Virus record (IMG/VR): IMGVR_UViG_3300042691_047306 | Location: 1-26,751 of that record | DNA: 26,751 bases | Source of the DNA: a virus | Reading direction: 5' to 3' (one strand) | Part shown: positions 7,979-26,392 of the stretch, one piece after another | Layout: each line of letters opens with the position of its first letter | How positions within the stretch are numbered: the first letter of the stretch is position 1 | The notes under the pieces: model-generated | What the model saw: only the letters and a program-made list of their open reading frames with translations | The model's database searches: none | What the model was told of the DNA's origin: nothing | Program-made: the position numbers and the translations under genes

Positions 7979-8209
7979 ATGGGAAACGCCTGGCAAGAAT
8001 ATAAGAAGAAACTTGGTGACACTCGTCCATGGGACGTAGTCAATCCTTCATCACCAAAATCGTCAGATGAAGAAGCTGATAGAAGATACTCGATATGCCA
8101 ATCATGTCCAAGTTTTCTCAAACTAACAAAACAATGTAAAGAATGTGGTTGTTTCATGCACCTAAAAACAAAATTGCAAAACGCTGAGTGCCCACTCGGG
8201 AAGTGGTGA
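7979..8209 (+). CDS. Small zinc-ribbon-like protein with conserved Cys residues
   Basis: A 76-residue protein with six cysteines: Cys40-X2-Cys43, Cys53-X2-Cys56-X-Cys58 and Cys71, within RRYSICQSCPSFLKLTKQC and CKECGCFMHLKTKLQNAECP, followed by the terminal CPLGKW. This is the signature of a small family of putative zinc-binding proteins common in cyanophages and pelagiphages next to tail genes or 2OG oxygenases; the role is unknown. The first 35 residues are polar and probably disordered. It lacks a Shine-Dalgarno sequence. Its stop overlaps the ATG of oxygenase A by one base (TGATG), so the two are probably translationally coupled, which hints at a shared task. Confidence 0.75.
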   Translation: MGNAWQEYKKKLGDTRPWDVVNPSSPKSSDEEADRRYSICQSCPSFLKLTKQCKECGCFMHLKTKLQNAECPLGKW

Positions 8210-8958
8210 TGTTTGACTTTTCCGATACTGAAACGCACGAGCACAAGCAGCATCTACTATTTGTTGATATAGACACAAATTTACCCAAAAATATTGAAGA
8301 TATCGATAAGAGGATGTTCCCGTATCCAGTCTTGGATTGTGCGCCTGAATTTAAAATATTTACACAGGATGATTTATTGAGTGCCGATGAGTGCGAGTAT
8401 TTAATTTGGCTCGCTGAAACATTGCCATCTTGGCCAGTTGGAACGATGAATTTTTGGAGTGAGCGGAATGTTGGACTTCTTACCGACATACCCAAGCACA
8501 AGCATGCAAGTGTTATAACTGCTCAATTGGTTCTTGACATACATGACAGAATTCGAAGGTTTATTTCAGATTCATTTGGTTTTGAGTGTTACGCGGACCA
8601 AATTGGTATCGTTCGTTGGCCTCCCGGCAGCTTCCAAATGCCTCATGTTGATGAGGTTCCAGAATTGGACAGAATTGCCGGTTCGGTTGTTTATCTGAAT
8701 GATTCCTATGCTGGTGGTAGAACCTACTATCCATATTATGGGAAGGAAAATACTCCACGGACTGGAACAATTTTTGCACACGACCCAGGGCAGGCGCATT
8801 TGCACGGTGTTACGCAAATACTAAATACCACAAGGTATACAATTTCATCTACGTGGTCGAAAAATCCAAAGGATTCTCGCTACGAAAGCTATTTAAAGTC
8901 GCTTAAATCATATATAGATGTAGTGCAACATGACGGAAGCCTAGGAGCACACACATAA
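8209..8958 (+). CDS. 2OG-Fe(II) oxygenase A (prolyl-4-hydroxylase-like)
   Basis: A 249-residue Fe(II)/2-oxoglutarate oxygenase. The facial triad is readable: His146-Val-Asp148 (QMPHVDEV) and distal His199 (HLHGV), with Arg209 ten residues further (TTRYTISSTW) to hold 2-oxoglutarate. Between them lies VVYLNDSYAGGRTYYPYYG, the usual YLND..GG core strand of the P4H type. The first 60 residues form an extension before the FTQDDLLSADECEYLI helix. The substrate is unknown; proline or another protein side chain is plausible from the family. ATG 8209 is preferred to an in-frame GTG at 8188 because of the TGATG junction and GGGAAG upstream. A short gap with a promoter-like element follows. Confidence 0.88.
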   Translation: MFDFSDTETHEHKQHLLFVDIDTNLPKNIEDIDKRMFPYPVLDCAPEFKIFTQDDLLSADECEYLIWLAETLPSWPVGTMNFWSERNVGLLTDIPKHKHASVITAQLVLDIHDRIRRFISDSFGFECYADQIGIVRWPPGSFQMPHVDEVPELDRIAGSVVYLNDSYAGGRTYYPYYGKENTPRTGTIFAHDPGQAHLHGVTQILNTTRYTISSTWSKNPKDSRYESYLKSLKSYIDVVQHDGSLGAHT

Positions 8959-8987
8959 ACTTCTTTTAATTCTTTACACATGATTGT

Positions 8988-8993
8988 GATAAT
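8988..8993 (+). promoter_or_regulatory. Putative -10 of a leaderless transcript (GATAAT, eight bases before ATG)
   Basis: In the 43-base gap after oxygenase A, GATAAT stands eight bases before ATG 9002, and the intervening CTTGCGTC holds no ribosome site. The region is otherwise AT-rich; TTTACA at 8973-8978 is too close to act as a standard -35. This would start a unit covering oxygenase B, the GT60-like gene and those downstream. Confidence 0.42.
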
Positions 8994-9001
8994 CTTGCGT
9001 C

Positions 9002-10057
9002 ATGTTTAAAACCACTAGCTCCGTTGACCCAATATTTGATGGCTCTACACCCGCAATTGATGCAGATGCAATCAAGGAAATACTCAATCTTGAGATTGAA
9101 CATCTTGGCAGCCCGACTACCGGAGTAGTTAGATTTCCTAACGCAATCGCTATGGACCAGCAAAAAATGAAAAAGTGGATTGATGCAAATGCCCAGGCAG
9201 CCCACGAACAGCGCTGGGAATATAGGGTTGATGATGCTGGCGTTACATATGCGGTCAATGAGGACGGCAATAAATTTTCGTTAGAGCAAATTGAAGAAGT
9301 ACCAATTCGTGTTCTTGAGCCAGTGAAAATGGAAACAGATGATGAATTTGTTGATATTTTCCGTAGCTGGGAAGACGCAATTTACAAGTGTATAATTCGC
9401 TATGTGGACCTATACCCAATGGTTCTAGGGACACTGTGGTGGAGAAGCAGGGGTCATGTCATCCGTTACGACGAGGGCGACTACCTAGGTATACACAATG
9501 ACAACGACTCAAATTTTAGGTCAACTGGCGGGAAGAGATATATACCAAAAGGTCAAATGCAGATGCGTCAGGTCTTGGCCGTCATGCTTTATGTGAATGA
9601 CTGTGTTGATGACGAGCTATTTAGTGGCGACAATTATAGTGGCGGAGAATTGACATTTCCATATCTCGGAATTGAGCACCAGCCAAAGTCCGGAGATATT
9701 GTCATTTTCCCAACAAACTTCATTGCTACGCATGGTGTCAACACCGTCAAGAGGGGGCAGCGCTACTGCTATCTTGAGTTTTGGTCGCAGGGTAGCAGCC
9801 AAGAAGAAGTGTGCGTAAATGTTGCTGAACCAAATGAGGTTGATGCATGGTGCAGGCCCCATTGGATTGATTCACTTTATGACGACTATTCACGGTATTG
9901 CATGCATTCCGAGTATCTTGAATCGTCCCTTGTTGGTAGGGCTAATCCCGTTTATCAGAATAGAAGCCTTGATAGTGAAGAGGGACACAAACAACCGTAT
10001 TCACATAACAAAGTCGTAGAGGACAATCGGCTTCGTGGCCAGATAGAGCCAGTTTAA
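9002..10057 (+). CDS. 2OG-Fe(II) oxygenase B, HLG-type paralogue
   Basis: A 351-residue oxygenase. The triad is His165-Asn-Asp167 (GIHNDND) and His244 (ATHGV), with Arg254 (GQRYCYLEFW). The N-terminal part holds EHLGSPTTGVV, related to the HLGGG motif of oxygenases F and G, and a conserved YAVNEDG..F...PIRV stretch also seen in G. The core includes LWWRSRGHVIRYDEGDYLGI and YSGGELTFPYLGIEHQPKSG. A C-terminal extension of about 80 residues after the fold (EVDAWCRPHWIDSLYDDY) has no obvious motif. The protein belongs to the closely related group B, E, F, G. It is followed one base later by the GT60-like gene, so oxygenase and glycosyltransferase are probably co-translated; this neighbour pair is the strongest contextual hint that hydroxylated protein is the glycosyl acceptor. 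Confidence 0.88.
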   Translation: MFKTTSSVDPIFDGSTPAIDADAIKEILNLEIEHLGSPTTGVVRFPNAIAMDQQKMKKWIDANAQAAHEQRWEYRVDDAGVTYAVNEDGNKFSLEQIEEVPIRVLEPVKMETDDEFVDIFRSWEDAIYKCIIRYVDLYPMVLGTLWWRSRGHVIRYDEGDYLGIHNDNDSNFRSTGGKRYIPKGQMQMRQVLAVMLYVNDCVDDELFSGDNYSGGELTFPYLGIEHQPKSGDIVIFPTNFIATHGVNTVKRGQRYCYLEFWSQGSSQEEVCVNVAEPNEVDAWCRPHWIDSLYDDYSRYCMHSEYLESSLVGRANPVYQNRSLDSEEGHKQPYSHNKVVEDNRLRGQIEPV

Positions 10058-10058
10058 G

Positions 10059-11057
10059 ATGCGAACGCACTCCAGCAATTGGGAAGCACATCTTGCATCA
10101 AACCAGAATATATTTGTAACAATCCCGTCCCTGAATGAAAATGACTTATTAAATACAATTTCTGATTTGTACAGCAAGGCAGATAATCCACAGTCCGTAT
10201 TTGTCGGTATATGTAATCAAAAAACCGATGGACAGTTTGAAGATTTTTCACAATTTGAAAACGTTCGATTCACGAATATTGATTCAGATAAAATACGCGG
10301 TATCGGGATTGCGCGTATTGAATCTCTGTGGCTGTGGAGTGGACAGAAATACATTTTGCAAATTGATGCTCATAGCAGATTTGTTGAATCTTGGGACTCA
10401 ATCCTAATTGCCTGGTATTTGAAACTGGAGTCTCTAAACCCAAACTGCGTCATATCACAGAGGCCGTGCGCATTTACAAAAACAATTGATGGGAAAATTA
10501 ATTTTGACGAGAGCATACCAAGTATTCAAAAATTGCGTGAATTTCAAATCCTTGATGCAACTGAAAAATTAACAAAGTCTGAGTTTTCATCTGAGCAAAG
10601 GAATGCAATATCCAACAATATTTCCCATGTTTTTGAATACCCTGAGTTTGTCGAGCACTATTTCGTGGCGGGTGGTTTTATATTTTCTATCTATAAATTT
10701 TTTATGGATGTATTACCAGACCCACGGATTGCATTTTTTGGAGAAGAACACACCTTGCCAATTAGGGCATCAGCAAATGGTTACTCGATTTATGCCATAA
10801 ATGAGAGAGTCGTCTACACCTTAGAAAAAACAGATGAATACTTGAATTCGGCAGATGCTTCCGCAAATTGGCATAATATTTATTCTGTCGATTCAGTCAG
10901 TACAACATATTTACATTTTTTTGATTCGTACACTAAAATATTACTAGGCCAAGAATTTGGGTACTATGGCGCAACGGATATTATTGCATATGAAACGTAT
11001 ATAGACAATATGGGATTTGACTATCGTTCCATTGAGGGGATATACACATATGATTGA
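10059..11057 (+). CDS. GT60-like glycosyltransferase (GlcNAc transferase family, PF11397)
   Basis: A 332-residue glycosyltransferase. Residues 17-55 (NIFVTIPSLNENDLLNTISD, ADNPQSVFVGICNQ) match the opening of the PF11397 / CAZy GT60 family. RGIGIAR (80-86) and the donor/metal motif YILQIDAHSRFVESWD (98-113, with Asp103-Ala-His105 in place of the classical DXD) follow, and FVAGGFIFSIYKFF with FFGEEHTLPIRA (227-237) marks the acceptor side. The characterised member in Dictyostelium adds GlcNAc to hydroxyproline 143 of Skp1, made by the prolyl hydroxylase PhyA; trypanosome members act on Thr or Ser of mucins. Here the gene lies between two 2OG oxygenases, so hydroxyproline on a phage or host protein is the natural acceptor to propose. 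Soluble, no membrane segment. The enzyme's donor sugar and acceptor are inferred, not visible. Confidence 0.85.
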   Translation: MRTHSSNWEAHLASNQNIFVTIPSLNENDLLNTISDLYSKADNPQSVFVGICNQKTDGQFEDFSQFENVRFTNIDSDKIRGIGIARIESLWLWSGQKYILQIDAHSRFVESWDSILIAWYLKLESLNPNCVISQRPCAFTKTIDGKINFDESIPSIQKLREFQILDATEKLTKSEFSSEQRNAISNNISHVFEYPEFVEHYFVAGGFIFSIYKFFMDVLPDPRIAFFGEEHTLPIRASANGYSIYAINERVVYTLEKTDEYLNSADASANWHNIYSVDSVSTTYLHFFDSYTKILLGQEFGYYGATDIIAYETYIDNMGFDYRSIEGIYTYD

Positions 11058-11607
11058 GCCAATTGGATTCCCGGGTTCAGATGTATTTATGGCTAGGAAC
11101 ATTTTCACAAAAAAAGAAATTGATTTGTTTCTTGATGTTTTTCTAACCACACAAAACCCATCATCCAGCGCAGAAGAACTATCAGGTCAATTTAAAAATA
11201 TTCAGATTAATGCCGAGAACATTGATATTGCGCAAAGGATGATTGCATTACTCGAAAACGCGCTCCGCACGGCGTATGGGGATACGTTCAAGCCCATTTT
11301 ATTACCCGACACGCGAACGTCGATTAAAATACAGGAAACTGGTCAAATGCACCCAATACATAGTGATTCGGCAAAAACCACTCACTCTGGGGGTGTGTAC
11401 GGAGAAATGCTCGCATATTCCGGAATACTCTCACTTTCGGATGATTATGATGGCGGTGAAATCAATTTTCCCGGAGATGGGGTATTCACAAAACTCGATG
11501 CCGGTTCAGCATTATTTTTCCCATCACAAAAACATATTCACCAAGTAGAACGCGTGTTATCCGGAACACGCTATACGTTTTTAACTTTTTGGGAACACTG
11601 TGAATAA
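11050..11607 (+). CDS. 2OG-Fe(II) oxygenase C (compact)
   Basis: A compact 185-residue oxygenase. The triad is His104-Ser-Asp106 (HPIHSDS) and His164 (HIHQV), with Arg174 (GTRYTFLTFW). The core strand is SLSDDYDGGEINFPG. It lacks the extensions of its larger relatives and resembles bacterial P4H-fold enzymes of PF13640 type. I chose ATG 11050 over an upstream TTG because GAGGGG lies at 11035-11040 and because it gives an eight-base overlap with the glycosyltransferase stop, a geometry repeated at other junctions in this window. Position right after the GT60-like gene suggests a common pathway. Confidence 0.86.
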   Translation: MIEPIGFPGSDVFMARNIFTKKEIDLFLDVFLTTQNPSSSAEELSGQFKNIQINAENIDIAQRMIALLENALRTAYGDTFKPILLPDTRTSIKIQETGQMHPIHSDSAKTTHSGGVYGEMLAYSGILSLSDDYDGGEINFPGDGVFTKLDAGSALFFPSQKHIHQVERVLSGTRYTFLTFWEHCE

Positions 11608-12640
11608 TGAAAATCTATTTGATATTTTGCAAAAATTTAAGTCTGTAAAAATATCAGACATTCAAATTGACCCATTCGGATACTGTAATGCAAAGTGTTG
11701 GTTCTGTCCAGTTAGCACGCATGGGAACATAACCTCATACTCCAAACATATGGAGCTAGATATGCTAGAAAAAATACTTCAAGATATTTATTCAGAAAAA
11801 CTTTCTCCGACTGGCATTATTTCAAGTCGATTAACCCAAATACATACCGCACATTATAACGAAATACTGTTATACAAGTATTTTGAAGAGTTTTTACAAT
11901 TGTTGTCCAGATTCGATTTCAAAATGGTTATTTTGTCAAACGGCGTTAATTTAACACCACAAAAAATAGATATAATAAATAAATATTCTTCTTCTGTGAG
12001 CGGCATACATCTAAATATTCCTGCATTTGAGCGTGAATTGTGGGCTGAGCGTACAGGAATGCGGCCAAGTGGATTTGATTCATTGATTGATAACATAAAA
12101 TACGCAGAAACTAATTTGCAGTACTTTGTTCATATAAACGCATTTACAATTGGAGTTAACTGTCCAACAGCATACTCGATGGACACTCATGGCGGTGCAA
12201 TGACAAAAATGCAAAATTTTCCGAGTATTGACCTGGACCCAGCATGCGGCGAGCTACAAACCCAGATATCAATTGCGCGTTCAATATTTCCATCAATTCC
12301 AGTCAACTCTGAAGAGCACTTACATGATAGGGCTGGGATGCTCGACGAAGCCGCCGTATTCTCTAATGCAATAAAACTAAATCCGCAAAAGCGTGCAAAA
12401 GCAGTCGGTTGCGAATATGGCTCGAACGGCAGAATCTTTGGGTGGCTAAATATAAACAGTAAAGCTGAAACATTTTTATGTTGCAATGATTTCAAATACG
12501 AGTATGTATTTGGTAATTTGTTGACACATAAACTGAGAGATGTATGGTTAAGTAGGCAGCACGCAGAGGTTGTAGATATGGCGCTGGCAAATATTTGCAC
12601 AAAGTGTATTCATGCGGTATGGGAAAACCACGATGTATGA
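11600..12640 (+). CDS. Radical SAM protein with SPASM-like C-terminus
   Basis: A 346-residue radical S-adenosylmethionine enzyme. The [4Fe-4S] motif is complete: Cys29-X3-Cys33-X2-Cys36 (FGYCNAKCWFCPVS). The body follows the family pattern with MVILSNGVNLTPQKI (strand 4), GIHLNIPAFERELW and a C-terminal region with extra cysteines (AVGCEYGSNG, ETFLCCNDF, FGNLLTHKLRDVW, NICTKCIHAV) that looks like a SPASM or twitch domain binding further clusters. SPASM enzymes often modify peptides or proteins. The start is a GTG at 11600 with GGGAA at 11591-11595, overlapping oxygenase C by eight bases. Whether it acts on the same substrate as the oxygenases is unknown, but it shares their transcription unit. 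Substrate not deducible. Confidence 0.85.
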   Translation: MNNENLFDILQKFKSVKISDIQIDPFGYCNAKCWFCPVSTHGNITSYSKHMELDMLEKILQDIYSEKLSPTGIISSRLTQIHTAHYNEILLYKYFEEFLQLLSRFDFKMVILSNGVNLTPQKIDIINKYSSSVSGIHLNIPAFERELWAERTGMRPSGFDSLIDNIKYAETNLQYFVHINAFTIGVNCPTAYSMDTHGGAMTKMQNFPSIDLDPACGELQTQISIARSIFPSIPVNSEEHLHDRAGMLDEAAVFSNAIKLNPQKRAKAVGCEYGSNGRIFGWLNINSKAETFLCCNDFKYEYVFGNLLTHKLRDVWLSRQHAEVVDMALANICTKCIHAVWENHDV

Positions 12641-13487
12641 AAATTCAATTTTTGACATGCAATATGACGACATATTGCGTAATATCGACCGATTGATTGA
12701 AGTATTCCGTAATAACGGTCTTGTAATATTCAGGCAACTGCATGCATCGGAGGAGCAGCAGTACTCAGTCTTGACATTGTTTGGCGACGCTCTCGGATGG
12801 AATCCAAATTCAATAAACGGTAATCTGATAAAACATTGGGTGAGATACGACGAAAATCATTCCGTATCAATTGACTTGAGGCAAAAATTTGGACCCCATC
12901 CGCTTGATGAAAATATACTTATTCACTGGCACCTAGAACATATAGAAAATGATGTACCGCAAGTTGGGGCGGCATGGAACATGATTAAAAATAACAACCC
13001 GAACCCAGATGCTGGTTCTACCGGTTTTGTTAGTTGCTACGCAGATAGACTGCTCCCCAGTATTGAGCATTTGAATTTCCTACGTAGTACTACAATCATG
13101 TGCACAGAAAACACTGGTTGGGAGATGGGTTGGGACTCGGCTGTCAGGCAATCAGTGATAAGCCATCAAATTACTGGTAAAGAAGTTTTAAGGCTGTGCC
13201 CACTTGGCCACACCCAGACTGTTATTTCTGTCGATGGAAAACCACCAACGCCGGATGACCAAAAACTAATGAATGAAATTACGTGGTGGTTTTTGCGCAC
13301 GGTCTGGGGTAATGCGGATGTTCAGTTTTGGTGGAACTGGTCTGCCGGAGATATGATTATTCCTGATTTAACAGTAATGGCCCATGCTGTAAAAAATGGT
13401 TTTAAGCACAACGAGAGAAGATTTATTGGATACTGGGCTTTTGGTGACGGCTACGAAAAGCGTATGCTTGGTCAATTAAGAACTTGA
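12633..13487 (+). CDS. TauD/TfdA-like 2OG oxygenase D
   Basis: A 284-residue oxygenase of the TauD/TfdA kind rather than the P4H kind. Readable features are RNNGLVIFRQL (strand near the N-terminus), the metal motif His100-Leu-Glu102 (IHWHLEH), distal His251 in WSAGDMIIPDLTVMAHAV, and a basic pair at 262-263 (ERRFIGYWAFGDG) for 2-oxoglutarate. Family members hydroxylate small acids, taurine, amino acids or sugars, so this enzyme may act on a metabolite or a sugar substituent rather than protein. An in-frame ATG at 12612 is an alternative start; 12633 is preferred because of GGGAAAACC ahead of it and an eight-base overlap with the preceding gene. It ends the plus-strand block and overlaps the opposing oxygenase E by 12 bases. 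Confidence 0.82.
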   Translation: MYENSIFDMQYDDILRNIDRLIEVFRNNGLVIFRQLHASEEQQYSVLTLFGDALGWNPNSINGNLIKHWVRYDENHSVSIDLRQKFGPHPLDENILIHWHLEHIENDVPQVGAAWNMIKNNNPNPDAGSTGFVSCYADRLLPSIEHLNFLRSTTIMCTENTGWEMGWDSAVRQSVISHQITGKEVLRLCPLGHTQTVISVDGKPPTPDDQKLMNEITWWFLRTVWGNADVQFWWNWSAGDMIIPDLTVMAHAVKNGFKHNERRFIGYWAFGDGYEKRMLGQLRT

Positions 13488-14258
13488 CAGAACACCGACT
13501 GGAACATATTCGTAATTTAAACCTTCTATCTTGGCTATGTCATTTTTCAGGTTTATCAGCCACTTAAAATTTGCTTTTTCTAGTTCCATCGATTCATAGT
13601 CGCACTCAGGGAGCCCGTGGCAAAACCACGAAAGATATGAATACCTAATACCAGACACAACTGGAAGAATCTCGTGTGCACCCATGTAGCTTGATGGGTA
13701 AACGGTTACTGAACCAACTTTTGCCCTGTGCGTTATGCCCCATGTCCTAAATCTAAGTTCTCCACCTTCGTAATTGTCGTTTATGGCCACCGTGGTGGTG
13801 AGCGTGTTATATAGCGGCGCTATGTGCAATGGGTTATAGGTTTCCCCGTCGTACGGCAATCCACAGTCGGAGTGTACGCCAATGTACTGACCTGGCTCAT
13901 ACATTGCCACGTGACCATCTGTTCTCCATGTCAGCTCTGAAACAGCAACCGGAAATACTTTTCCGTATATTGTTACTGCTTTATATATGCCATCGTCTAT
14001 TGATTTTTTTATTAATGCATCCTCAGCGGTCTCGCCAATATAGCCAAACTTGTCAAAACGTGTTGGTCTCGTGTCTACAGATGTTTTGTCGAATTCGTAT
14101 CCTCCCTCATTTCTTTCAACAAATTCGTCTATTGAGGAGTAGCCCTGTGGAACCGAGTTACTCTGAACCCTTGCCATCCACTCAAGGCTTTGCTGATTGT
14201 TTAAATCAATCAAGCCTTCTATGTTCAGTATTCCATTGCCAAGGTGGGTGATAATCAT
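13476..14258 (-). CDS. 2OG-Fe(II) oxygenase E, HLG-type paralogue
   Basis: A 260-residue oxygenase and last gene of the minus-strand block. It begins MIITHLGNGI, close to the HLGGG motif of F and G. Triad: His129-Ser-Asp131 (GVHSDCG), His195 (GAHEI) and Arg205 (GIRYSYLSWFCHG). The core strand is NDNYEGGELRFRTWG. It starts with a four-base ATGA overlap with oxygenase F. The long N-terminal part (residues 20-110) includes ERNEGGYEFDKTSVDTRP, where B, F and G have a related Val-Asn-x-Gly-Gly element; it is the most diverged member of the group. It converges on the TauD-like gene without a visible terminator between them. Confidence 0.87.
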   Translation of the reverse strand: MIITHLGNGILNIEGLIDLNNQQSLEWMARVQSNSVPQGYSSIDEFVERNEGGYEFDKTSVDTRPTRFDKFGYIGETAEDALIKKSIDDGIYKAVTIYGKVFPVAVSELTWRTDGHVAMYEPGQYIGVHSDCGLPYDGETYNPLHIAPLYNTLTTTVAINDNYEGGELRFRTWGITHRAKVGSVTVYPSSYMGAHEILPVVSGIRYSYLSWFCHGLPECDYESMELEKANFKWLINLKNDIAKIEGLNYEYVPVGVLSSS

Positions 14259-15121
14259 GAGTGCATGCTTTCAACTAGCGACAATGCGTGAGCTGGGGCT
14301 TCTGGACCAAGAGATTCAAGGTGTTTTTTAAAATCGTTCCTAAGGTTCGGTAAATAAATATTTGTTGCTATCGAGGCCATTTCTGGTTTTTCTATAGGGT
14401 CTTCTACGGCTTCGTTGTATGCGGGATTTGGACTGCCGTGCGAATACCAACCTAAATAGGAATACCTATTACCAGATGTAACTGGTTTAACTTCATGGGC
14501 AGCCATAAAGTTTGATGGAAACATCAGAATGTCTCCAGCATTTGGCTGATATTCAATATCCAAATAATTGAAATAATGGCTTCCGCCTTCAAAATTGTCA
14601 TTCAAATACACAATGCACGATACTGTGTTTCGTGTGGCAAGTTGGTCTGGTGGTTCAGGCATTCCGTATAGGTAATCTGCGCTTGTATCTGAGTGTTGAC
14701 CAAGAAAAGTTCCGCCGTGCTCTGTCGAGTAAGAAACAATGTGGCCCTTTACCTTCCACCACACATTTTTATAGGCTAATGGAAATAATACAAAATATTT
14801 AATTAAACATGAATATTTTGACTCTTCAACAAAATCCAAAAATGCTTTAACATCAGTGTCGTCTGTTCTATGTATTGCTGAACCACGTCTTGGCATTTGC
14901 CTAACCCCATCGGCGTCAAAATAGTACCCGCTTTTATTTAGGTAAGCCATTTTGCCTGTCTCTGGGTCGACTGCTTCGGTATACATCTGTTCTCTCTCAA
15001 GAGAAACCTGACGTTCGGCAAATGAGCACGCCCAATTTACATCAAAAGAAATTGCGTTTTCGAACAACACAACACCACCACCAAGGTGTTTTGCAGGTGG
15101 ATTATTGAACTTCCAGCTCAT
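14255..15121 (-). CDS. 2OG-Fe(II) oxygenase F, HLG-type paralogue
   Basis: A 288-residue oxygenase. The N-terminus carries KHLGGGVVLFENAISFD (residues 10-26), nearly the same as oxygenase G, then an ALYNKSGY-type stretch (MAYLNKSGYYFDADGVRQMP). Triad: His143-Ser-Asp145 (GQHSDTS), His209 (AAHEV) and Arg219 (GNRYSYLGWYSHG). Core strand: VYLNDNFEGGSHYFNYLD, where the second Gly is followed by Ser instead of the usual Glu. It overlaps the methyltransferase upstream by four bases (ATGA). With E, G and B it forms a set of duplicated genes that share termini but differ in the loop between the Asp and the core strand. Confidence 0.88.
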   Translation of the reverse strand: MSWKFNNPPAKHLGGGVVLFENAISFDVNWACSFAERQVSLEREQMYTEAVDPETGKMAYLNKSGYYFDADGVRQMPRRGSAIHRTDDTDVKAFLDFVEESKYSCLIKYFVLFPLAYKNVWWKVKGHIVSYSTEHGGTFLGQHSDTSADYLYGMPEPPDQLATRNTVSCIVYLNDNFEGGSHYFNYLDIEYQPNAGDILMFPSNFMAAHEVKPVTSGNRYSYLGWYSHGSPNPAYNEAVEDPIEKPEMASIATNIYLPNLRNDFKKHLESLGPEAPAHALSLVESMHS

Positions 15122-15789: not shown

Positions 15790-15794
15790 GATTT

Positions 15795-16932: not shown

Positions 16933-16933
16933 G

Positions 16934-16945
16934 TCATACGTATGA
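16934..16945. repeat. 12-base perfect palindrome
   Basis: TCATACGTATGA is a perfect palindrome lying directly after the stop codon of oxygenase G and one base away from the inverted repeat arm. Without a loop it is unlikely to be an RNA terminator, so a dimeric DNA-binding protein site is more plausible. Confidence 0.55.
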
Positions 16946-17800: not shown

Positions 17801-17804
17801 ATCT

Positions 17805-20012: not shown

Positions 20013-20748
20013 TTCTCTCACCTTTAACTACTACGGTTACTCCATAAAACAATGGAATATGGTACGTCCTGCAGTCATCACGAGCCATTAGTTCCTCGTG
20101 ATATGACCATACTGGGGTCGCTATTGTATCGTTTTGATACAAAAATACGCTATCTGAAGAATTTTGAATGACCATAAAACCACCATCATTTAGCCTATCC
20201 ACCCAAAAATCTGTTCCGTTAAAAGCGTCCTCCATGTCTTGAGACCAGCCTATAATCATGTCAAATTTGATATGTTCATTACCTCGTAATTCCTGCACTG
20301 TGACAACTTCGTAGTCGAGTGGGGTGTTGGCTGACTGGAACATTTCATATAATGACAACTTTTTGTTGTTTAAAAACGTTATTTTTGAACCATATATATT
20401 TTGGAATGGTTCCAGTCTGAATCTATCGAGCCCGCCAGAAAGAGCTAAAACATTTTTCTTGGGGCTAATGTCCATGAGCATTTGAATCATTAATATTGGC
20501 ATCCACTGCGACTGACCATACGAATCTGCCAAATTTGGCCGTGGATAATGAATTACAAATTCGTAGTCGGACGCCCCACCAGTCGCGATATTCCTTCTAT
20601 CAATACCAATTTCCTCAAAAAGATATTTGGAAATATTTACAGACTCTTCCCCATCTACTGATGTCGATTGTTTTGCAAAATTGCGCCAATTTCGGTGCCA
20701 CTTTGTAAAATCAAACGCCCTAAAAGGCGCAAACCTATTTTCAGACAT
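19999..20748 (-). CDS. Possible Rossmann-fold / methyltransferase-like protein
   Basis: A 249-residue protein I cannot assign firmly. The middle reads like a class I methyltransferase fold without a standard glycine-rich motif: KKNVLALSGGLDRF (about 110-123, strand 1), KITFLNNKKLSL (strand 2), IKFDMIIGWSQDMEDAF (strand 4) and LNDGGFMVIQNSSD (strand 5), ending in GVTVVVKGERN. The first 60 residues are basic and aromatic (FRAFDFTKWHRNWRNFAKQ). Start choice: ATG 20748 gives an eight-base overlap with the upstream gene; ATG 20781 and TTG 20784 are longer alternatives. It sits between oxygenase I and a small unknown gene. Confidence 0.5.
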   Translation of the reverse strand: MSENRFAPFRAFDFTKWHRNWRNFAKQSTSVDGEESVNISKYLFEEIGIDRRNIATGGASDYEFVIHYPRPNLADSYGQSQWMPILMIQMLMDISPKKNVLALSGGLDRFRLEPFQNIYGSKITFLNNKKLSLYEMFQSANTPLDYEVVTVQELRGNEHIKFDMIIGWSQDMEDAFNGTDFWVDRLNDGGFMVIQNSSDSVFLYQNDTIATPVWSYHEELMARDDCRTYHIPLFYGVTVVVKGERNVGL

Positions 20749-21034
20749 TTTCTGTACCGCCGTGGGTAGCAAATTGAACATCAAACCATGTCCGTCTAAT
20801 ATTTCTTGTTAATAAAATGTTTTGTTTCTTTATATATGTTTGTGCCGCTGAGTTTTCATGACTACTGTGCTTGTATATGTATGTATCACGAATTTTATTT
20901 ACGACATCATCTATCGATGATGCCTGGAACTCATCAAATGAATACCCGAGCACCAATAACAATGAGGCTAAACGTTCGCAGCAGTACTGCGAATCTGCGT
21001 GTTTATCGTATTTGTAGCTCATATCTCTATCCAT
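20741..21034 (-). CDS. Small hypothetical protein (97 aa)
   Basis: A 97-residue soluble protein with a predicted helical N-terminal part (CERLASLLLVLGYSFDEFQA, DDVVNKIRDTYIYK) and a basic C-terminal part (LLTRNIRRTWFDVQF). No known domain is recognised. It starts either at ATG 21034, overlapping oxygenase J by eight bases, or at ATG 21022 with GGATAG ahead. It is flanked by and co-directional with oxygenase J and the methyltransferase-like gene, which is the only context for function. Confidence 0.6.
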   Translation of the reverse strand: MDRDMSYKYDKHADSQYCCERLASLLLVLGYSFDEFQASSIDDVVNKIRDTYIYKHSSHENSAAQTYIKKQNILLTRNIRRTWFDVQFATHGGTENV

Positions 21035-21713
21035 TATCTACTGTGAAAAATCCAGAACACGTGTATCTCTTTCCCGCTGTGACCGGTGCTACTCCGTGGG
21101 CCATGTCTTCATGGCTTGAATTTGAAATCATCAATAGCGAATTCGCAACTGGTCTATAGGTGAGTCCAAGTGCAGGAAGTATATATTCCCCTCCCTCATA
21201 GTCGTCATTAATGTAGTAAACAGTCGAGTAATCGGTTTGCGGATATCCCGGCAGTCCATACTGGTACCCATCACAATGAACCCTAAGTGATTTGCCCTCG
21301 CCGTACATTGTTATAAACGGTCCAAATTCCCATACTGTACGATGTCCGAAGATGTTGGATATTATAGATTGTGACTTATGAATCGTCTTGAGTAGCAGCT
21401 CTGAGATTGCCGTAGTACTCGGAGAGTGAGTTAGCGCTTTCCAGTCAGTTTCATTACCCATACTTTCCGGATACGGCTCATCACGTTCCTTTCTCAGAAT
21501 TGATTCGTATTCATCCTGGCTCAGCATGAAACAACGCTCATACTCAATATGTGGCAACCTGGAGTGCTTTACCTTCTTAAACCTAACAGGGCTGTCGCCT
21601 GAACCAAGATAGCCAAACTGCTCGCTCATTTCTTCTGTATAATTTTTTATTTTCTTCCATTCTTCATTTTCAAGATAATTGGAGAAAATTAAAACCTGTG
21701 GAGTGTCATTCAT
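21027..21713 (-). CDS. 2OG-Fe(II) oxygenase J
   Basis: A 228-residue oxygenase. Triad: His146-Cys-Asp148 (LRVHCDGYQYG), His206 (DMAHGVAPV) and Arg216 (GKRYTCSGFF). Core strand: VYYINDDYEGGEYILPALG. The N-terminal half (NYTEEMSEQFGYLGSGD, PHIEYERCFMLSQDEYE) is longer and Glu-rich compared with its relatives. I chose ATG 21713 because an AAGGA lies about eleven bases upstream and the resulting eight-base overlap with the previous small gene repeats the junction geometry seen elsewhere; ATG 21725 and an upstream in-frame start near 21743 are alternatives. Highly similar in type to PF13640 enzymes; substrate unknown. Confidence 0.85.
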   Translation of the reverse strand: MNDTPQVLIFSNYLENEEWKKIKNYTEEMSEQFGYLGSGDSPVRFKKVKHSRLPHIEYERCFMLSQDEYESILRKERDEPYPESMGNETDWKALTHSPSTTAISELLLKTIHKSQSIISNIFGHRTVWEFGPFITMYGEGKSLRVHCDGYQYGLPGYPQTDYSTVYYINDDYEGGEYILPALGLTYRPVANSLLMISNSSHEDMAHGVAPVTAGKRYTCSGFFTVDNG

Positions 21714-21897
21714 CGTCTTTTTCATCCTTGAACATTGCCACACCCTGACAAATAGTTACCGGCTTGCCAGCGACGTAATAAATCCCCGTTGATGAATCCC
21801 ATTCAATTACCTCATTGTCCCAGTCTGTCAAATCTGTAACCGACTCTCCCCTATGGGCAGCCATATCTGGTTTTTGTATTTGTTCGTTATCTGGCAT
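21706..21897 (-). CDS. Small acidic hypothetical protein (63 aa)
   Basis: A 63-residue acidic protein starting MPDNEQIQKPDMAAHRGESV, with DWDNEVIEWDSSTGIYYVAG and the tail VAMFKDEKDDE. I see no known domain. The ATG at 21897 has GGTGAG six bases ahead and overlaps the upstream small gene by 11 bases; a longer reading from 22026 covers that other gene out of frame and is unlikely. The single W-rich acidic segment and acidic tail suggest an adaptor or binding protein; the function is unknown. Confidence 0.6.
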   Translation of the reverse strand: MPDNEQIQKPDMAAHRGESVTDLTDWDNEVIEWDSSTGIYYVAGKPVTICQGVAMFKDEKDDE

Positions 21898-22114: not shown

Positions 22115-22118
22115 TTTG

Positions 22119-22823
22119 TCACTCCAACGGTTCTTTTAGTTTTGGCAATCCAGTGAATGCGGGTCCAATTTTGTTCCCATCGGCATCCAATCCGGTTCTA
22201 ATTCCCTTTGTCCACGTCCACGGGTTTTCTTGGTTATTTCTCATTTTTGCGTCTCCGTACTTTTGCCGACTTGCCATAAGTTCTTGATTGTCCCACAAGT
22301 TCAATAGTTCAAACTCCACATTCTCCAAAATCGAACTATCAAACATTGTGAAAAACATAAACGGCATGCCTGCCTCAAATTTGACAGGTTCGTTTATCTT
22401 GTCAATAACCCAATTCATTTGAAATTCATCTGGCCACCAGCTGCTGGGAATTATTGCGGAAAGCGGCTTTGCTCCGTCCATGATATAATTCGGCGAGCCG
22501 CCTATCCATGTTTCATACCCCGGCTCCGTGCCAAAAGCTAATCCGGTAGAAAATGAAACCATGCCGATTATTCCACCATAGGCGATTTGACGGCCCTCAA
22601 ATTCAGCTCCTTCAAGTATTTTGGGTACAGTATTGCCACCCTCCCAGATAGCCACAACGTCCTGCTGTAATACGAGTTCCCATCCGTAAACATTTGCGAC
22701 AGTCATGGGCAGGCATTGGTATGCATGTTTATTGTACGTATTGTCCATCCAATCCCGCTTTATACGAGATTGTTTGATTGCTGGCGGGTTTTGTGTCGTT
22801 CTCGTCAATGTGAACTTCGGCAT
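22119..22823 (-). CDS. DUF6065-like protein
   Basis: A 234-residue protein that resembles the DUF6065 family known from phages and bacteria: AYQCLPMTVANVYGWELVLQ near residue 40, FSTGLAFGTEPGYETWIGGS, and IPSSWWPDEFQMNWVIDK. The family has no known role. It is rich in Trp and Gly and has no membrane segment or signal peptide. The ATG at 22823 lacks a ribosome site; TATGCT stands six bases ahead, suggesting a leaderless transcript. It is divergent from the FkbM-type gene at 22903, and the two share a 79-base intergenic region. The similarity is recalled from sequence patterns only, so family membership is moderately certain. Confidence 0.62.
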   Translation of the reverse strand: MPKFTLTRTTQNPPAIKQSRIKRDWMDNTYNKHAYQCLPMTVANVYGWELVLQQDVVAIWEGGNTVPKILEGAEFEGRQIAYGGIIGMVSFSTGLAFGTEPGYETWIGGSPNYIMDGAKPLSAIIPSSWWPDEFQMNWVIDKINEPVKFEAGMPFMFFTMFDSSILENVEFELLNLWDNQELMASRQKYGDAKMRNNQENPWTWTKGIRTGLDADGNKIGPAFTGLPKLKEPLE

Positions 22824-22829
22824 GCACAA

Positions 22830-22835
22830 AGCATA
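22830..22835 (-). promoter_or_regulatory. Putative -10 (TATGCT) six bases before the DUF6065-like ATG
   Basis: On the minus strand the order is TATGCT-TTGTGC-ATG, with no Shine-Dalgarno sequence. Same six-base spacing as at the diiron gene (TAGTAT) and oxygenase K (TATACT). Confidence 0.36.
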
Positions 22836-22857
22836 GTCGAATCAGCCGTTTTGGTCG

Positions 22858-22866
22858 TGCTAGGAT
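22858..22866 (+). promoter_or_regulatory. Putative extended -10 (TGCTAGGAT) for the FkbM-type gene
   Basis: TGCTAGGAT fits the extended -10 pattern TGnTAnnAT/T and lies 36 bases ahead of ATG 22903. A strong GGGGG ribosome site (22893-22897) follows at five bases spacing. This is the only + strand transcript in the right half of the window, so it needs its own promoter. Confidence 0.4.
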
Positions 22867-22902
22867 TCCAATCCACCACTACGACAACACACGGGGGCTA
22901 AA

Positions 22903-23505
22903 ATGTACTGGAATGGTCCTGGGGTAGAAATACCAAACTTGCCAAGCTGGGACTCATTGAATTCCATGGAAGGTCAAGATAAGTGGGTGCTAACAGTACT
23001 TGGTGGAAAACAGCACGGCACATATGTTGAAATTGGTAGTGGGCATCCAGTCATGGGTAATAATACGTTCGTACTAGAGAACCACTTTGGATGGACTGGA
23101 GTTGGAGTTGAACACGACCACGAAATGGTCAAGGAATACAATTCAACAAGAGTCAATCCATGCATGCACTTTGATGCCATGGCGTTTGACTATGCCAGTT
23201 ATTTTCGAAACAATCATTTCCCGTCTCAGATTGACTACCTACAAATTGATATAGATGACAAACCGTTCGCTGCGAACTTGTTGGCGCTTATCGCCTTACC
23301 GCTTACCGAATACCGGTTTTCAACGATTACCATCGAGCATGGGTTAGTCACGAATTATAAAATGGGCCCACTTCGAGATGCGCAGCGTTTAATTTTAAGT
23401 TCTATTGGGTACAGACTTATTGTTCAAGGCGTAAATGAAGACTGGTGGATTGACGAAACTGCAGTACCGTACGAGAAGTACGGTTATATGTTTCAAATTG
23501 GCTGA
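22903..23505 (+). CDS. FkbM-type methyltransferase
   Basis: A 200-residue methyltransferase of the FkbM / Methyltransf_21 type: GTYVEIGSGHPVMGNNTFVL (residues 39-58, motif I), FGWTGVGVEHDHEMVKEYN (motif II), HFPSQIDYLQIDIDDKP (the IDYLKIDIDG-like motif), and YRFSTITIEHGLVTNY. FkbM family members methylate sugar hydroxyls in macrolide and glycan pathways, so a role on a glycan made by the GT60-like enzyme is an appealing but unproven link. It is read against its neighbours from its own promoter, converging with the NAD-binding protein gene by a 13-base overlap. Confidence 0.8.
   Translation: MYWNGPGVEIPNLPSWDSLNSMEGQDKWVLTVLGGKQHGTYVEIGSGHPVMGNNTFVLENHFGWTGVGVEHDHEMVKEYNSTRVNPCMHFDAMAFDYASYFRNNHFPSQIDYLQIDIDDKPFAANLLALIALPLTEYRFSTITIEHGLVTNYKMGPLRDAQRLILSSIGYRLIVQGVNEDWWIDETAVPYEKYGYMFQIG
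23466..23484. repeat. Inverted repeat near the end of the FkbM-type gene
   Basis: ACCGTAC and GTACGGT (7 bases each, loop GAGAA) lie about 20 bases before the FkbM stop. It could form a hairpin in either strand's RNA; coincidence within coding sequence cannot be excluded. Confidence 0.3.
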
Positions 23506-24065
23506 TTTCGGGTTTTGCGGATTTCCGCAATATCCATTACAACATATTTTGCTGGCGGCTGACATTCGTTGATAATCCAAAAATCGTCAAATAATCTACC
23601 CACCATTGCGGCACTCCTACCTGTTAGGTACATGGTTCTAGGTTCAAACTCATCGAATTCAGGCGTTCCAAATTCAGGAACTTCCTTATGTTCTGAAATC
23701 GGCCATGCCCTAACCGCCCCATCAACATAATCAACGCTTGATGCCTTAAACATCATATTTATTTTGTCTATATCTGGTTCATGCAAACCGTTTAAATCAA
23801 TGTATGTTCCTTTGTATTTGCTTGCTATTGCTTGTTCTGCCAACCCCATCCATGAGCCGCCAGCGACAATACAAAATATGAATTCACACTTTTCAAATAA
23901 TGACTCAAGGCAAACAAGGTCTATTGCATTTAGATTTTGGGCATTGTCGATTGTTTTCTGTGAACGATATTCAGAGGCATAAAATACTTCATGCCCGTTT
24001 TTTATTAGAGAATGCGCAATTGTCGAACCCATTGACCCCATTGAGGCGATGCCGATTTTGGCCAT
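23493..24065 (-). CDS. Short NAD(P)-binding protein, 6PGDH/imine-reductase-like
   Basis: A 190-residue protein with the Rossmann N-terminus of the 6-phosphogluconate / 3-hydroxyisobutyrate dehydrogenase superfamily: MAKIGIASMGSMGSTIAHSL, LVCLESLFEKCEFIFCIVAG and KGTYIDLNGLHEPD. Full-length members have about 290 residues with an all-alpha C-terminal domain that completes the active site; only the N-terminal part is present here, with a replaced tail (FDDFWIINECQPPAKYVVMD). It could be a domain-only reductase or an inactive NAD(P)-binding protein. It starts with a one-base TGATG overlap on oxygenase K. Confidence 0.7.
   Translation of the reverse strand: MAKIGIASMGSMGSTIAHSLIKNGHEVFYASEYRSQKTIDNAQNLNAIDLVCLESLFEKCEFIFCIVAGGSWMGLAEQAIASKYKGTYIDLNGLHEPDIDKINMMFKASSVDYVDGAVRAWPISEHKEVPEFGTPEFDEFEPRTMYLTGRSAAMVGRLFDDFWIINECQPPAKYVVMDIAEIRKTRNQPI
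23515..23530. terminator. Possible bidirectional terminator hairpin at a convergent junction
   Basis: TTGCGGA-TT-TCCGCAA is a perfect 7-base inverted repeat ten bases after the FkbM stop, inside the coding end of the opposing gene. A run of T follows only weakly (TATCC then TTAC), so the terminator reading is tentative; its location between two convergent genes is the main support. Confidence 0.3.
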
Positions 24066-24718
24066 CAGTAACCCTGGGACTGACCGTACATATAATGTTC
24101 TGGTTTGTGTGTTCTATCGTTGTAGTCAAACATCGTTACCGCTGCATACTTGATTCCGCTAGTTACCGGTTTTGATGCATGAGCGTAAATGAATGTTGAA
24201 GGAAAGAGAATGATGTCCCCATACTCTGGTTTTATGGTCAAATCAAAATATGGGAACCACAATTCTCCGCCCTCGTAGTCATCATTTAGGTACATCACCG
24301 AAGAAACGGTGCAGTTATAGGAAAAACCGTGGTCGGTATGTACGGCAAAGTGTTGACCTTGTCCATATCGCACATAGTTAATGGCTTCCATAAATTCCAT
24401 ATTTATGTTGTATCTGCTCTGGTAGTCAACTAGGCATTTACGGAGACCATCATTTGTGTCATTGTATATATTTTTTATCTCGCTAAACTGCGGTGGGCAG
24501 TGCTTTAGATGGTCGACGCCTATCTTGCAGTCAACACAATCCCTGTAGTCAGGCATCTTTATCGAGTCACCGACAAGTGCATCCATCCACATGTACGGAG
24601 CCGTTGAGCTGTCGCCTATCGTTGACTCCAAGCGCTCTACCAAATTTAGTTCTTTAGGAAGGGCGTTCTTGTACAGGATTATTGCTAGTTGTGGGTTCCC
24701 GATGTAAATTGACTGCAT
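24065..24718 (-). CDS. 2OG-Fe(II) oxygenase K (Lys in place of the 2OG-binding Arg)
   Basis: A 217-residue oxygenase. Triad: His127-Thr-Asp129 (FAVHTDHG), His180 (FIYAHASKPV), and ten residues on a Lys190 (SGIKYAAVTMFDY) in the place where the other members have Arg. Core: VMYLNDDYEGGELWFPYFDL, the P4H-type signature; IKPEYGDIILFPSTF follows. In collagen prolyl 4-hydroxylase this position is also Lys, so activity is expected. The N-terminal 110 residues contain a Cys pair (CVDCKIGVD) of unknown role. The start lacks a ribosome site but has TATACT six bases ahead. Overlaps the NAD-binding gene by one base; gap of 33 bases to the small gene upstream. Confidence 0.87.
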   Translation of the reverse strand: MQSIYIGNPQLAIILYKNALPKELNLVERLESTIGDSSTAPYMWMDALVGDSIKMPDYRDCVDCKIGVDHLKHCPPQFSEIKNIYNDTNDGLRKCLVDYQSRYNINMEFMEAINYVRYGQGQHFAVHTDHGFSYNCTVSSVMYLNDDYEGGELWFPYFDLTIKPEYGDIILFPSTFIYAHASKPVTSGIKYAAVTMFDYNDRTHKPEHYMYGQSQGY

Positions 24719-24724
24719 GGGCTC

Positions 24725-24730
24725 AGTATA
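24725..24730 (-). promoter_or_regulatory. Putative -10 (TATACT) six bases before oxygenase K ATG
   Basis: On the minus strand the order is TATACT-GAGCCC-ATG in the 33-base gap after the small 89-residue gene. No Shine-Dalgarno sequence. A TAAACA 18 bases further upstream could serve as a weak -35. Confidence 0.42.
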
Positions 24731-24751
24731 GTCCTGGTTGGGTCGGGCTGT

Positions 24752-25021
24752 TTACTCGAGTATAAAATCTGCCGTTTTGGGGGTATGAATCATTCCCGCT
24801 ATAGCCAACTCTTTTGACAGGGTGTTAATTGCATGTATTACACCTAGTTCTTCCGGTATGCCGAGTTCTTTTGTCAGTTCTGGCAGTTTGCCATTTGCTA
24901 TATCTGACCATACAGCGACAATTGCCTGAGCCCCAGTCATTCCAATATGATGATATTTAGATGCAACCGCATTGAGCATTGTTTTATCTAGCCATTCTCG
25001 ATGATTCTGGTCATGTTCCAT
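24752..25021 (-). CDS. Small hypothetical protein (89 aa)
   Basis: An 89-residue soluble, largely helical protein: EHDQNHREWLDKTMLNAVAS, GAQAIVAVWSDIANGKLPEL, ELGVIHAINTLSKELAIAGM. No family is recognised. It shares a TAATG junction (one-base overlap) with oxygenase L and is followed by a 33-base gap with a promoter-like box. It might be an accessory subunit of the neighbouring oxygenase, as judged only from coupling. Confidence 0.6.
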   Translation of the reverse strand: MEHDQNHREWLDKTMLNAVASKYHHIGMTGAQAIVAVWSDIANGKLPELTKELGIPEELGVIHAINTLSKELAIAGMIHTPKTADFILE

Positions 25022-25656
25022 TAAATGAATTCCTCCACGCTGTAAAAAGCTGGTGTTGTATATCTTTCTCCAGATGTGACCATCTTGACACCGTGTAGAT
25101 AATTAATATCACCTGGGTGCAACACTGCCAATCCTGGTTCTGGCTTTATCTCTATTTCGTATTGCGGGTAATATAATTCTCCGCCATCAAAATCATCGTT
25201 GTAATAAAATAGTGAATTTATGTCGTAGGTAGGGAATGGGTTTGGTGAACCATCTGGCATCTGCTTATCTGCGTGAGGCCTTTGTTCTATCCCGTCAAAC
25301 CATCGAATTATGCATGGTGGCCTCTTTGAGACGCGACATGAAAATATAGAATTAATTGTGTTGGCCATTTTGTCAATATACGAATCAATCAGAGAGTATA
25401 TTTCTGGACTAATTCTTCTTAAAATAAAATCGGCACATTGTCGGTTATTCCAGTATGCAGCATCATATGTGCAGGTACCATCCTCTGCGTATTCGTTTTC
25501 ATCTTTGGCGTTTGCCCATTCGCTAATTGTTTTTGCAAAATCATGAATTTTTATGACATCTTCTTTGTCAATAAAATTTGGGATTATATGTATGTTCTGT
25601 GGGCCACTGCCGAAGTGTCCGGGCTGCACTTTCCATGGATTCACGTTGTTAATCAT
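25021..25656 (-). CDS. 2OG-Fe(II) oxygenase L
   Basis: A 211-residue oxygenase. Triad: His128-Ala-Asp130 (RPHADKQ), His188 (NYLHGVKMV) and Arg198 (SGERYTTPAFYS). Core: LFYYNDDFDGGELYYPQYEI followed by IKPEPGLAVLHPG. The N-terminus GHFGSGPQNIHIIPNFI resembles the HLGGG motif of oxygenases B, E, F and G, so it probably belongs to the same wider lineage. ATG 25656 gives an eight-base overlap (ATGATTAA) with the PhyH-like gene and has GGGAA ahead; an upstream in-frame TTG at 25668 is less likely. The pair with the PhyH-like gene suggests coupled translation. Confidence 0.86.
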   Translation of the reverse strand: MINNVNPWKVQPGHFGSGPQNIHIIPNFIDKEDVIKIHDFAKTISEWANAKDENEYAEDGTCTYDAAYWNNRQCADFILRRISPEIYSLIDSYIDKMANTINSIFSCRVSKRPPCIIRWFDGIEQRPHADKQMPDGSPNPFPTYDINSLFYYNDDFDGGELYYPQYEIEIKPEPGLAVLHPGDINYLHGVKMVTSGERYTTPAFYSVEEFI

Positions 25657-26392
25657 GGTAGTTCCCAACTACATAGAAAATGCCATTATTGTTTTTAATT
25701 CTCTGGCCCGGAAGTTCATCAATACAGGATTGGGCTTCGTATTGCTCGATTGCGTAATAGTGCCCAAACAACACATCTCTCCCAACTTTCCAGTTTTTTA
25801 TTTCCCCACCCCGGTGGTATAGGTGTCCATGCCAAAATAGTACATCGCCCTTTTTTGCTTCAAACACATACGGTTTAACGCCCATTGAATCAATGAGCTT
25901 TTCGTTGTATTCGTAGCACGAATTATGGTAATTTTTGCAATTTTCGTGGTTTAATATTTCTGCATTTTTTACCCATTTGTGCGAACCTGGTATTAGTTCA
26001 AATGGTCCACACTCAATGTCTACGTCGCTCATTGCGACGTGTACGCCAATGTAGTTATTTGCGGCATCAATAAGTTGGTCTATATAGTCCGTATGCCACT
26101 TTATGCCCGATGTTCCTATCCTGGCTTCCGAAAGATGCAACGCAAACTGCTTATTTAGGGTTTTAAAATAATGCAGTATTTCCGTTCCACATAATATGTC
26201 TCTGATTTCTTGGCTATCTATATATGCATCTCTGCTTATATAGCTTTGATAAAGGGGAAGTTTTTCTTCAAGAATAAGGTTGTTCGGCTTATGCTTCTTG
26301 ATAAAAGCGTTAATTTTTTCATCACTTATTAACCCATTGACAACGACGTAACCATCATTCCAATACGTAGTGCTGAAATCGGTTCCATCCAT
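25649..26392 (-). CDS. PhyH-like (phytanoyl-CoA dioxygenase family) oxygenase M
   Basis: A 247-residue Fe(II)/2OG oxygenase of the PhyH type, distinct from the P4H-like ones: WNDGYVVVNGLIS at the N-terminus, metal motif His100-Thr-Asp102 (IKWHTDYID), IECGPFELIPGSHKWV (the typical P.GSH loop) and distal His193 in FWHGHLYHRGGE, with Arg205 (VGRDVLFGHYY). PhyH members act on acyl-CoA, ectoine, mitomycin-type and sugar-linked substrates. It follows the FN3 protein with 15 bases between, and TAGAAT stands eight bases before its ATG, so it may have its own leaderless transcript. Function within the island is unknown. Confidence 0.87.
   Translation of the reverse strand: MDGTDFSTTYWNDGYVVVNGLISDEKINAFIKKHKPNNLILEEKLPLYQSYISRDAYIDSQEIRDILCGTEILHYFKTLNKQFALHLSEARIGTSGIKWHTDYIDQLIDAANNYIGVHVAMSDVDIECGPFELIPGSHKWVKNAEILNHENCKNYHNSCYEYNEKLIDSMGVKPYVFEAKKGDVLFWHGHLYHRGGEIKNWKVGRDVLFGHYYAIEQYEAQSCIDELPGQRIKNNNGIFYVVGNYHD

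Follow-up and report, generated by a model that had tools for sequence, protein, structure and literature searches.

The DNA analysed here is the entire 26,751-base IMG/VR virus record IMGVR_UViG_3300042691_047306 (hereafter the window). Baseplate and tail genes occupy its left third, an array of thirteen Fe(II)/2-oxoglutarate (2OG) oxygenase genes (A to M) extends from 8.2 kb to the right end, and a second FN3 tail protein gene follows on the minus strand at the very edge. This tail protein ends in tandem units of [FY]-F-P-P, and we show that such repeats and prolyl 4-hydroxylase (P4H)-like genes share a conserved linkage and gene order. The oxygenases and the repeat protein are as follows.

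8188..8958, plus strand: A, P4H-like 2OG oxygenase, start at GTG 8188 or ATG 8209 (phrog_2297 76.5 bits, PF13640 24.7 bits)
9002..10057, plus strand: B, P4H-like, core clade (PF13640 41 bits)
11017..11607, plus strand: C, P4H-like 2OG oxygenase (PF13640 27.1 bits)
12612..13487, plus strand: D, TauD-type 2OG oxygenase (PF02668 38 bits)
13476..14258, minus strand: E, P4H-like, core clade (PF13640 31.7 bits)
14255..15121, minus strand: F, P4H-like, core clade, structure modelled (PF13640 52 bits; pLDDT 90.3)
16946..17842, minus strand: G, P4H-like, core B/E/F/G clade (PF13640 39.7 bits; tree)
18422..19345, minus strand: H, 2OG-FeII_Oxy_5 type with H-x-H (PF13759 29.1 bits, phrog_81 65 bits)
19338..20021, minus strand: I, divergent P4H-like 2OG oxygenase (PF13640 24.3 bits, phrog_274 31.6 bits)
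21027..21743, minus strand: J, P4H-like 2OG oxygenase (PF13640 43.2 bits)
24065..24718, minus strand: K, P4H-like, one of the two types most often beside the repeat (PF13640 49.3 bits; PDB profile E 1e-7)
25021..25668, minus strand: L, P4H-like, the other of these two types (PF13640 27.1 bits; PDB profile E 4.8e-8)
25649..26392, minus strand: M, PhyH-type 2OG oxygenase, first gene after the repeat protein (PF05721 65.6 bits)
26408..26751, minus strand: FN3 tail protein cut by the contig end, with C-terminal 16 x [FY]-F-P-P ending RFK (candidate substrate)

An earlier reading of the letters alone (the sequence-only reading) had proposed these thirteen oxygenases, and each was recovered where it had been placed and is supported by profile hidden Markov models (HMMs). 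The division of the genes into P4H-like, TauD-like, PhyH-like and one divergent type (H) agrees with the matches to PF13640 or PHROG families, PF02668, PF05721 and PF13759, respectively. PF13640 is matched above the Pfam cut-off by B, C, E, F, G, J, K and L; A and I fall slightly below it (24.7 and 24.3 bits) and match phage 2OG families instead, with A matching phrog_2297 (76 bits) and phrog_61 (55 bits). PHROG families 2297, 274 and 3531, which match 2OG oxygenases of the window (among A to L), are labelled DNA endonuclease, endonuclease V and ferrochelatase, and all three families are probably mislabelled, with "DNA endonuclease" and "ferrochelatase" looking like inherited misnomers. The metal triad and a distal basic residue, which the sequence-only reading had described as HxD/E...H with a basic residue in twelve candidates, are kept in all thirteen (by alignment, with D and M read directly). 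The basic residue of K is Lys, and in H the motif H-x-H replaces H-x-D, which we take to be normal for the PF13759 family to which H belongs. The high density of such genes was likewise borne out: eight PF13640 matches occur in 26.7 kb, against a single match over the cut-off in FN3-tail phage records without the repeat that total about 1.8 Mb, and the density is therefore far beyond chance.

Rather than mostly lacking the double-stranded beta-helix by HMM, all 13 proteins match 2OG oxygenase families; the fold was checked by a model for F, and the other 12 were assigned by HMM. F was modelled by AlphaFold2 alongside 29 further sequences (25 relatives, plus four paralogues from the window). 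The model is a confidently predicted double-stranded beta-helix of the prolyl-hydroxylase type (pLDDT 90.3), and its closest fold matches are PHD2 (HIF prolyl hydroxylase 2; Z 15.5), the algal P4H 3gze (Z 15.2) and the PBCV-1 viral P4H (Z 15.0). In profile searches against the PDB, the nearest entry is Bacillus anthracis P4H for K (E 1e-7), human prolyl 3-hydroxylase 1 (P3H1) for L (E 4.8e-8) and the same Bacillus enzyme for F (E 8e-7), and the solved relatives nearest to these three are all peptidyl-prolyl or lysyl hydroxylases (B. anthracis P4H, P3H1, PBCV-1 P4H and LH3). Their nearest sequences thus place K, F and L with the peptidyl-prolyl hydroxylases, as does the predicted fold for F.

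The repeat tract of the window comprises 16 [FY]-F-P-P units at 26420-26611 on the minus strand, at the C-terminus of the FN3 tail protein. Synonymous variation is free among these 16 units, and across contigs 89 codon versions occur among 600 repeat units. This codon variety, together with stops in one antisense frame in 30 of 72 tracts, indicates that the Phe-Pro reading is the coding one. An antisense Gly-Lys open reading frame was considered and ruled out on account of these stops and of the FFPP frame, which is fused to FN3 and ends in FK-stop. In other contigs, tandem [FY]-F-P-P likewise ends FN3 and other tail proteins that adjoin arrays. The repeat gene of the window shares the minus-strand direction with the genes that follow it and heads the operon in that direction, and intact counterparts lie directly upstream of M/L/K in two other contigs (L011 and L012). 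No collagen-type Gly-X-Y substrate was found near the array, and the window repeat is [FY]FPP without Gly. In some tail proteins the repeat is followed by Hint- or intein-like sequence, with matches to PF14890 (L114:3-785) and PF13403 (L168:3100-3900) and further instances seen by eye (L095:3762-5014, L113:1-3294 and L143:514-1863), which suggests self-processing of the fibre end.

To assess the linkage, the repeat and the enzymes were each used alone to select records. The repeat DNA pattern matched at least 120 viral stretches, and PF13640 was found in 34 of the first 40 records examined, mostly in multiple copies; several of the six remaining records are short fragments. Conversely, the repeat was present in 41 of 50 records found by protein F alone. 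As a control, 50 records of at least 10 kb were picked by an FN3 motif, with the repeat counted in a strict or looser form. All six control records with the repeat carry 6-8 PF13640 copies, and only one of the 44 without it has PF13640 above the cut-off, as a single copy (Fisher P = 6e-8; 5e-6 once two near-duplicate pairs are merged). Four of these controls with six PF13640 copies (L218, L228, L238 and L268) lack the exact strict pattern and have looser F-P repeats.

The positions of the genes point the same way. A P4H gene is present in 34 of the 39 repeat loci that have more than 3 kb of downstream sequence (a count that leaves out loci L090-L099), and in 30 of these 34 the nearest one lies downstream on the same strand as the repeat, often at a spacing of 6-90 nucleotides. 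In an unbiased clustering of the genes within 6 kb of the repeat, the K/L hydroxylase is the commonest family after tail genes (147 genes, 47 of 69 loci), followed by DUF6065 (29 of 69 loci), and the gene directly downstream of the repeat gene is usually a K- or L-type hydroxylase. Between loci, the best pair of K or L proteins has a median identity of only about 42-45%, indicating that the linkage has persisted through long divergence. The repeat pattern occurs in only 13 places in 257 Gb of contigs from cellular genomes. K and L genes adjoin it in three phage-like loci (L325, L329 and L335), whose bins are labelled Verrucomicrobiales, Gammaproteobacteria and Chitinophagaceae; L334 is a further contig of that Gammaproteobacteria bin, and no hydroxylase was found on the examined stretches of the remaining nine places.

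The array itself is a conserved system in a lineage of mostly aquatic phages, with up to about a dozen oxygenase genes; most of these resemble collagen-hydroxylating enzymes, and they nearly always adjoin a tail-fibre gene that ends in the repeat. A scan with protein F yielded 155 relatives, of which the best 80 were retained as loci, and each of 26 related records has between 3 and 14 copies of PF13640. These copies cluster, as in the 145-kb record G016, where all seven lie within about 12 kb. The content of the arrays differs between contigs, and a core gene order recurs that comprises K, DUF6065, (X1, I, H), the glutathione-peroxidase-like gene and multiple genes of the B/G/F/E type. A tree of 104 sequences places the ten P4H-like genes of the window in separate clades, where they group with their equivalents on other contigs. 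One expanded clade (SH-aLRT 99) holds B, E, F and G as tandem-type paralogues, and A, C, I, J and L form separate deep branches, in keeping with the mixture of duplicated and unrelated types that the sequence-only reading had described. An assembly chimera was ruled out, as L012 (a 69 kb contig) and L011 (160 kb), both from other metagenomes, have nearly identical gene order to the window; this order, and the 26 related records, show that the array is not an assembly join of unrelated contigs, and it recurs in dozens of independent viral contigs. No end repeats were found in the 26,751-base record. Among isolate phages the window has no near relatives at the DNA level, and protein F matches only cyanophages and a few marine viruses, all at <60% identity over <80% of the query.

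Interleaved with the oxygenases are genes for a glycosyltransferase, a radical-SAM protein, a methyltransferase, and AurF-like, glutathione-peroxidase-like, DUF6065 and reductase proteins; these and the remaining genes of interest are listed here.

6454..7641, plus strand: left-flank FN3 tail protein with a terminal polyproline run and a Cys-rich tail (PF00041 111 bits; phrog tail families)
7979..8209, plus strand: DUF6171 small Cys-rich protein that recurs near repeat genes (PF19668 27.5 bits)
10059..11057, plus strand: PF11397 "GlcNAc" (N-acetylglucosamine) glycosyltransferase (110.6 bits)
11600..12640, plus strand: radical SAM/SPASM protein (PF04055 43.9 bits, PF13186 27.4 bits)
15118..15789, minus strand: SAM (S-adenosylmethionine) methyltransferase (PF13649 38.6 bits)
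15795..16904, minus strand: AurF-like di-iron oxygenase (PF11583 27.9 bits, slightly below cut-off)
17805..18422, minus strand: glutathione-peroxidase-like protein, frequent in arrays (PF00255 82 bits; synteny)
19999..20784, minus strand: X1, conserved and adjoining I in many arrays (synteny; no Pfam or PHROG match); methyltransferase-like by eye
22119..22829, minus strand: DUF6065, regular companion of the repeat and K/L (PF19541 150 bits)
22903..23505, plus strand: FkbM-like methyltransferase, weak match (PF05050 E 0.03, below cut-off)
23493..24065, minus strand: NADP-dependent reductase-like protein (PF03807 25.6 bits)

PF11397 occurs in 9 of 35 array records and in none of 20 controls (P = 0.02), and we take it to be the family that holds the hydroxyproline GlcNAc-transferase Gnt1. 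Gnt1 is specific for hydroxyproline and acts after P4H (PMC6939170). No solved relative of the window glycosyltransferase was found by sequence. Glycosylation as an obligate step is ruled out by the presence of PF11397 in only 9 of the 35 array records, and PF11397 and PF13640 lie on separate genes, not on a bifunctional hydroxylase-glycosyltransferase polypeptide. DUF6065 was considered as a hidden 14th oxygenase, and this is unsupported: its model resembles the beta fold of dUTPases (Z about 10, pLDDT 79). Two families of proteins with no Pfam match also lie near repeat genes, one of about 250 residues with the motif WYKDADRFAK (L165:5115-5882; near 20 of 69) and one of about 255 residues starting with HIPRTSGTG (L112:6805-7593; near 7 of 69), the latter sulfotransferase-like by eye. 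The left third of the window encodes a phrog_5026 baseplate protein, a baseplate-J-like protein, a tail fibre and the first FN3 tail protein, in which a Pfam profile search gave no collagen match. The top matches of the baseplate-J-like protein are Gordonia and Arthrobacter phages, which suggests, and does not prove, an actinobacterial host; relatives of this protein were sought in viral_contigs for a lineage contrast, and none was found.

We consider it reasonably probable that the array encodes a phage system for post-translational modification of the low-complexity repeat in the phage's own tail protein. The sequence-only reading had suggested modification of one polymer, and that suggestion now has a concrete candidate in the [FY]FPP tail repeat, which is tied statistically and positionally to the array genes; from this linkage, the repeat is probably the substrate. 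Tens of Phe/Tyr-Phe-Pro-Pro units form the end of the tail gene, which is followed in the same direction by the 4-hydroxylase-like K, the 3-hydroxylase-like L and DUF6065, with up to ten 2OG oxygenases added in larger arrays. Catalytic activity, target residues, order of steps, sugar and benefit are what we infer; each enzyme may have a step or site of its own, as the sequence-only reading suggested, and the steps may be sequential. Hydroxylation during virion production would affect the repeat's prolines and possibly also its aromatic residues. In each unit, K and L may oxidize both prolines, probably at C4 and C3, a proposal made because their nearest relatives are B. anthracis P4H and P3H1 and because B. 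anthracis P4H hydroxylates both prolines of Pro-Pro-Gly peptides (PMC8968730). Larger arrays would add further oxidations, perhaps on aromatic residues, and where the PF11397 glycosyltransferase occurs, GlcNAc may then be added to hydroxyproline. Because a tract of Phe and Pro alone would be very hydrophobic, hydroxylation could confer solubility or adhesion, so that the tract would serve as a spacer or receptor-binding tip that is hydrated, stiff or adhesive. More tentatively, and on balance doubtfully, a dozen oxygenases with methyl- and glycosyltransferases might act as an oxidation assembly line from which the (Phe/Tyr-Phe-Pro-Pro)n tail emerges as a glycosylated polymer with dense hydroxylation; this would represent a new class of phage adhesin or receptor-binding material, with a logic comparable to that of plant extensins or mussel foot protein.

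Phages with many 2OG oxygenases are already known, and for the linkage to a repeat we found no earlier report. Cyanophages carry 1-5 such oxygenases, for which roles in 2OG metabolism or DNA repair were proposed (PMC3037559), cyanophage S-SCSM1 has 24 of them, whose roles had, as of 2022, not been the subject of specific investigation (PMC9602691), and structural surveys have noted many PHD-like proteins in marine phages (PMC12774648). Similar to the window, cyanophages such as S-SCSM1 can have many PF13640, PF13759 and PF05721 genes in one phage; however, the 24 genes of S-SCSM1 are spread across the genome with no substrate proposed (PMC9602691), whereas the window has a tight array tied to [FY]FPP. 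The short tail fibre of S-SCSM1 (L336:4847-6112) contains a long low-complexity insert of Arg/Pro/aromatic type; four 2OG oxygenase genes immediately precede the tail genes and three follow them. In cyanophage S-CAM7 an annotated prolyl 4-hydroxylase (L340:7728-8324) follows, at a distance of about 2 kb, a collagen-repeat protein of 1545 residues (L340:1074-5711; PF01391, 286 bits). As a general cyanophage rule, a repeat beside a P4H was rejected, these two cases, which agree with the linkage, being anecdotes that stand outside the statistics. No earlier description of the [FY]FPP repeat or its enzyme link was found in the literature searched, which covers few subscription journals or preprints.

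Viral hydroxylases of the same fold with repeat-protein targets are PBCV-1 vCPH (5c5t) and the mimivirus lysyl hydroxylase-glycosyltransferase, the latter also glycosylating its target; in the window the repeat protein is a candidate target, and hydroxylase and transferase are separate genes rather than fused as in mimivirus. Unlike the window phage, PBCV-1 and mimivirus are eukaryotic viruses with Gly-X-Y collagen substrates and few enzymes. B. anthracis P4H (3itq, 5iax) and human P3H1 (8k0e), the nearest solved sequences of K/F and L, act on Pro-Pro-containing peptides, but they are cellular enzymes with low sequence identity, and their substrates are collagen-like or EF-Tu, not Phe-Phe-Pro-Pro. 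The Skp1 prolyl hydroxylase and Gnt1 (GT60) of protists form a comparable pair, a P4H followed by a hydroxyproline GlcNAc-transferase (PMC6939170), as PF11397 lies among P4H genes in the window. The protist pathway, however, modifies a single proline of a ubiquitin-ligase subunit and serves as an oxygen sensor, whereas here the candidate target is a phage-tail tandem repeat, and only about a quarter of array phages have the transferase.

Several observations weigh against modification of the tail repeat. It is not obvious why one repeat would need 10-13 enzymes, and the D, H, M and AurF-like families often act on small molecules. The repeat is not on the examined stretch in 9 of the 50 array records, and some repeat phages have a single P4H or none. 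The linkage could partly reflect shared ancestry; a tree-based test of independent pairs was underpowered, with only 2 supported pairs, both concordant. The tail role of the repeat protein is predicted from its FN3 domains and tail neighbours. If the repeat merely marks a phage clade, the enzymes might have another target, such as a translation factor, DNA or the glycans of the cell surface; EF-Tu is bound and modified by related P4Hs of bacteria (structures 4iw3 and 5v7y), and small molecules or nucleic acid are frequent targets of the TauD, PhyH and PF13759 types. We nevertheless hold this to be distinctly unlikely, since repeat presence tracks array presence in both directions and K/L usually lie directly after the repeat.

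It is also unlikely that a variable tail-fibre island has simply gathered any cargo, with the repeat and the oxygenases hitch-hiking together without a functional tie. Both do lie in the tail region, and array content does vary by contig, but FN3-tail phages without the repeat also have tail regions and yet carry almost no PF13640, the order and strand of repeat and hydroxylase are conserved at about 42-45% protein identity, and other cargo is much rarer near the repeat. An auxiliary metabolic role, in which the oxygenases drain host 2-oxoglutarate or make succinate and thereby tune nitrogen signalling or energy, was proposed for cyanophages (PMC3037559) and repeated for the 24 oxygenases of S-SCSM1 (PMC9602691). 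We consider it very unlikely here, because it does not predict a linkage to a tail repeat and leaves ten conserved orthologous paralogue clades unexplained, one copy being enough for bulk turnover.

Aquatic phages commonly carry 2OG oxygenases, and a link between these enzymes and one defined tail-protein repeat provides a testable target for a gene group that has long been unexplained. If modification of the tail repeat is true, these phages would build their host-binding fibres by oxygen-dependent protein modification, and host recognition would depend on chemistry that is invisible to sequence-based host prediction.

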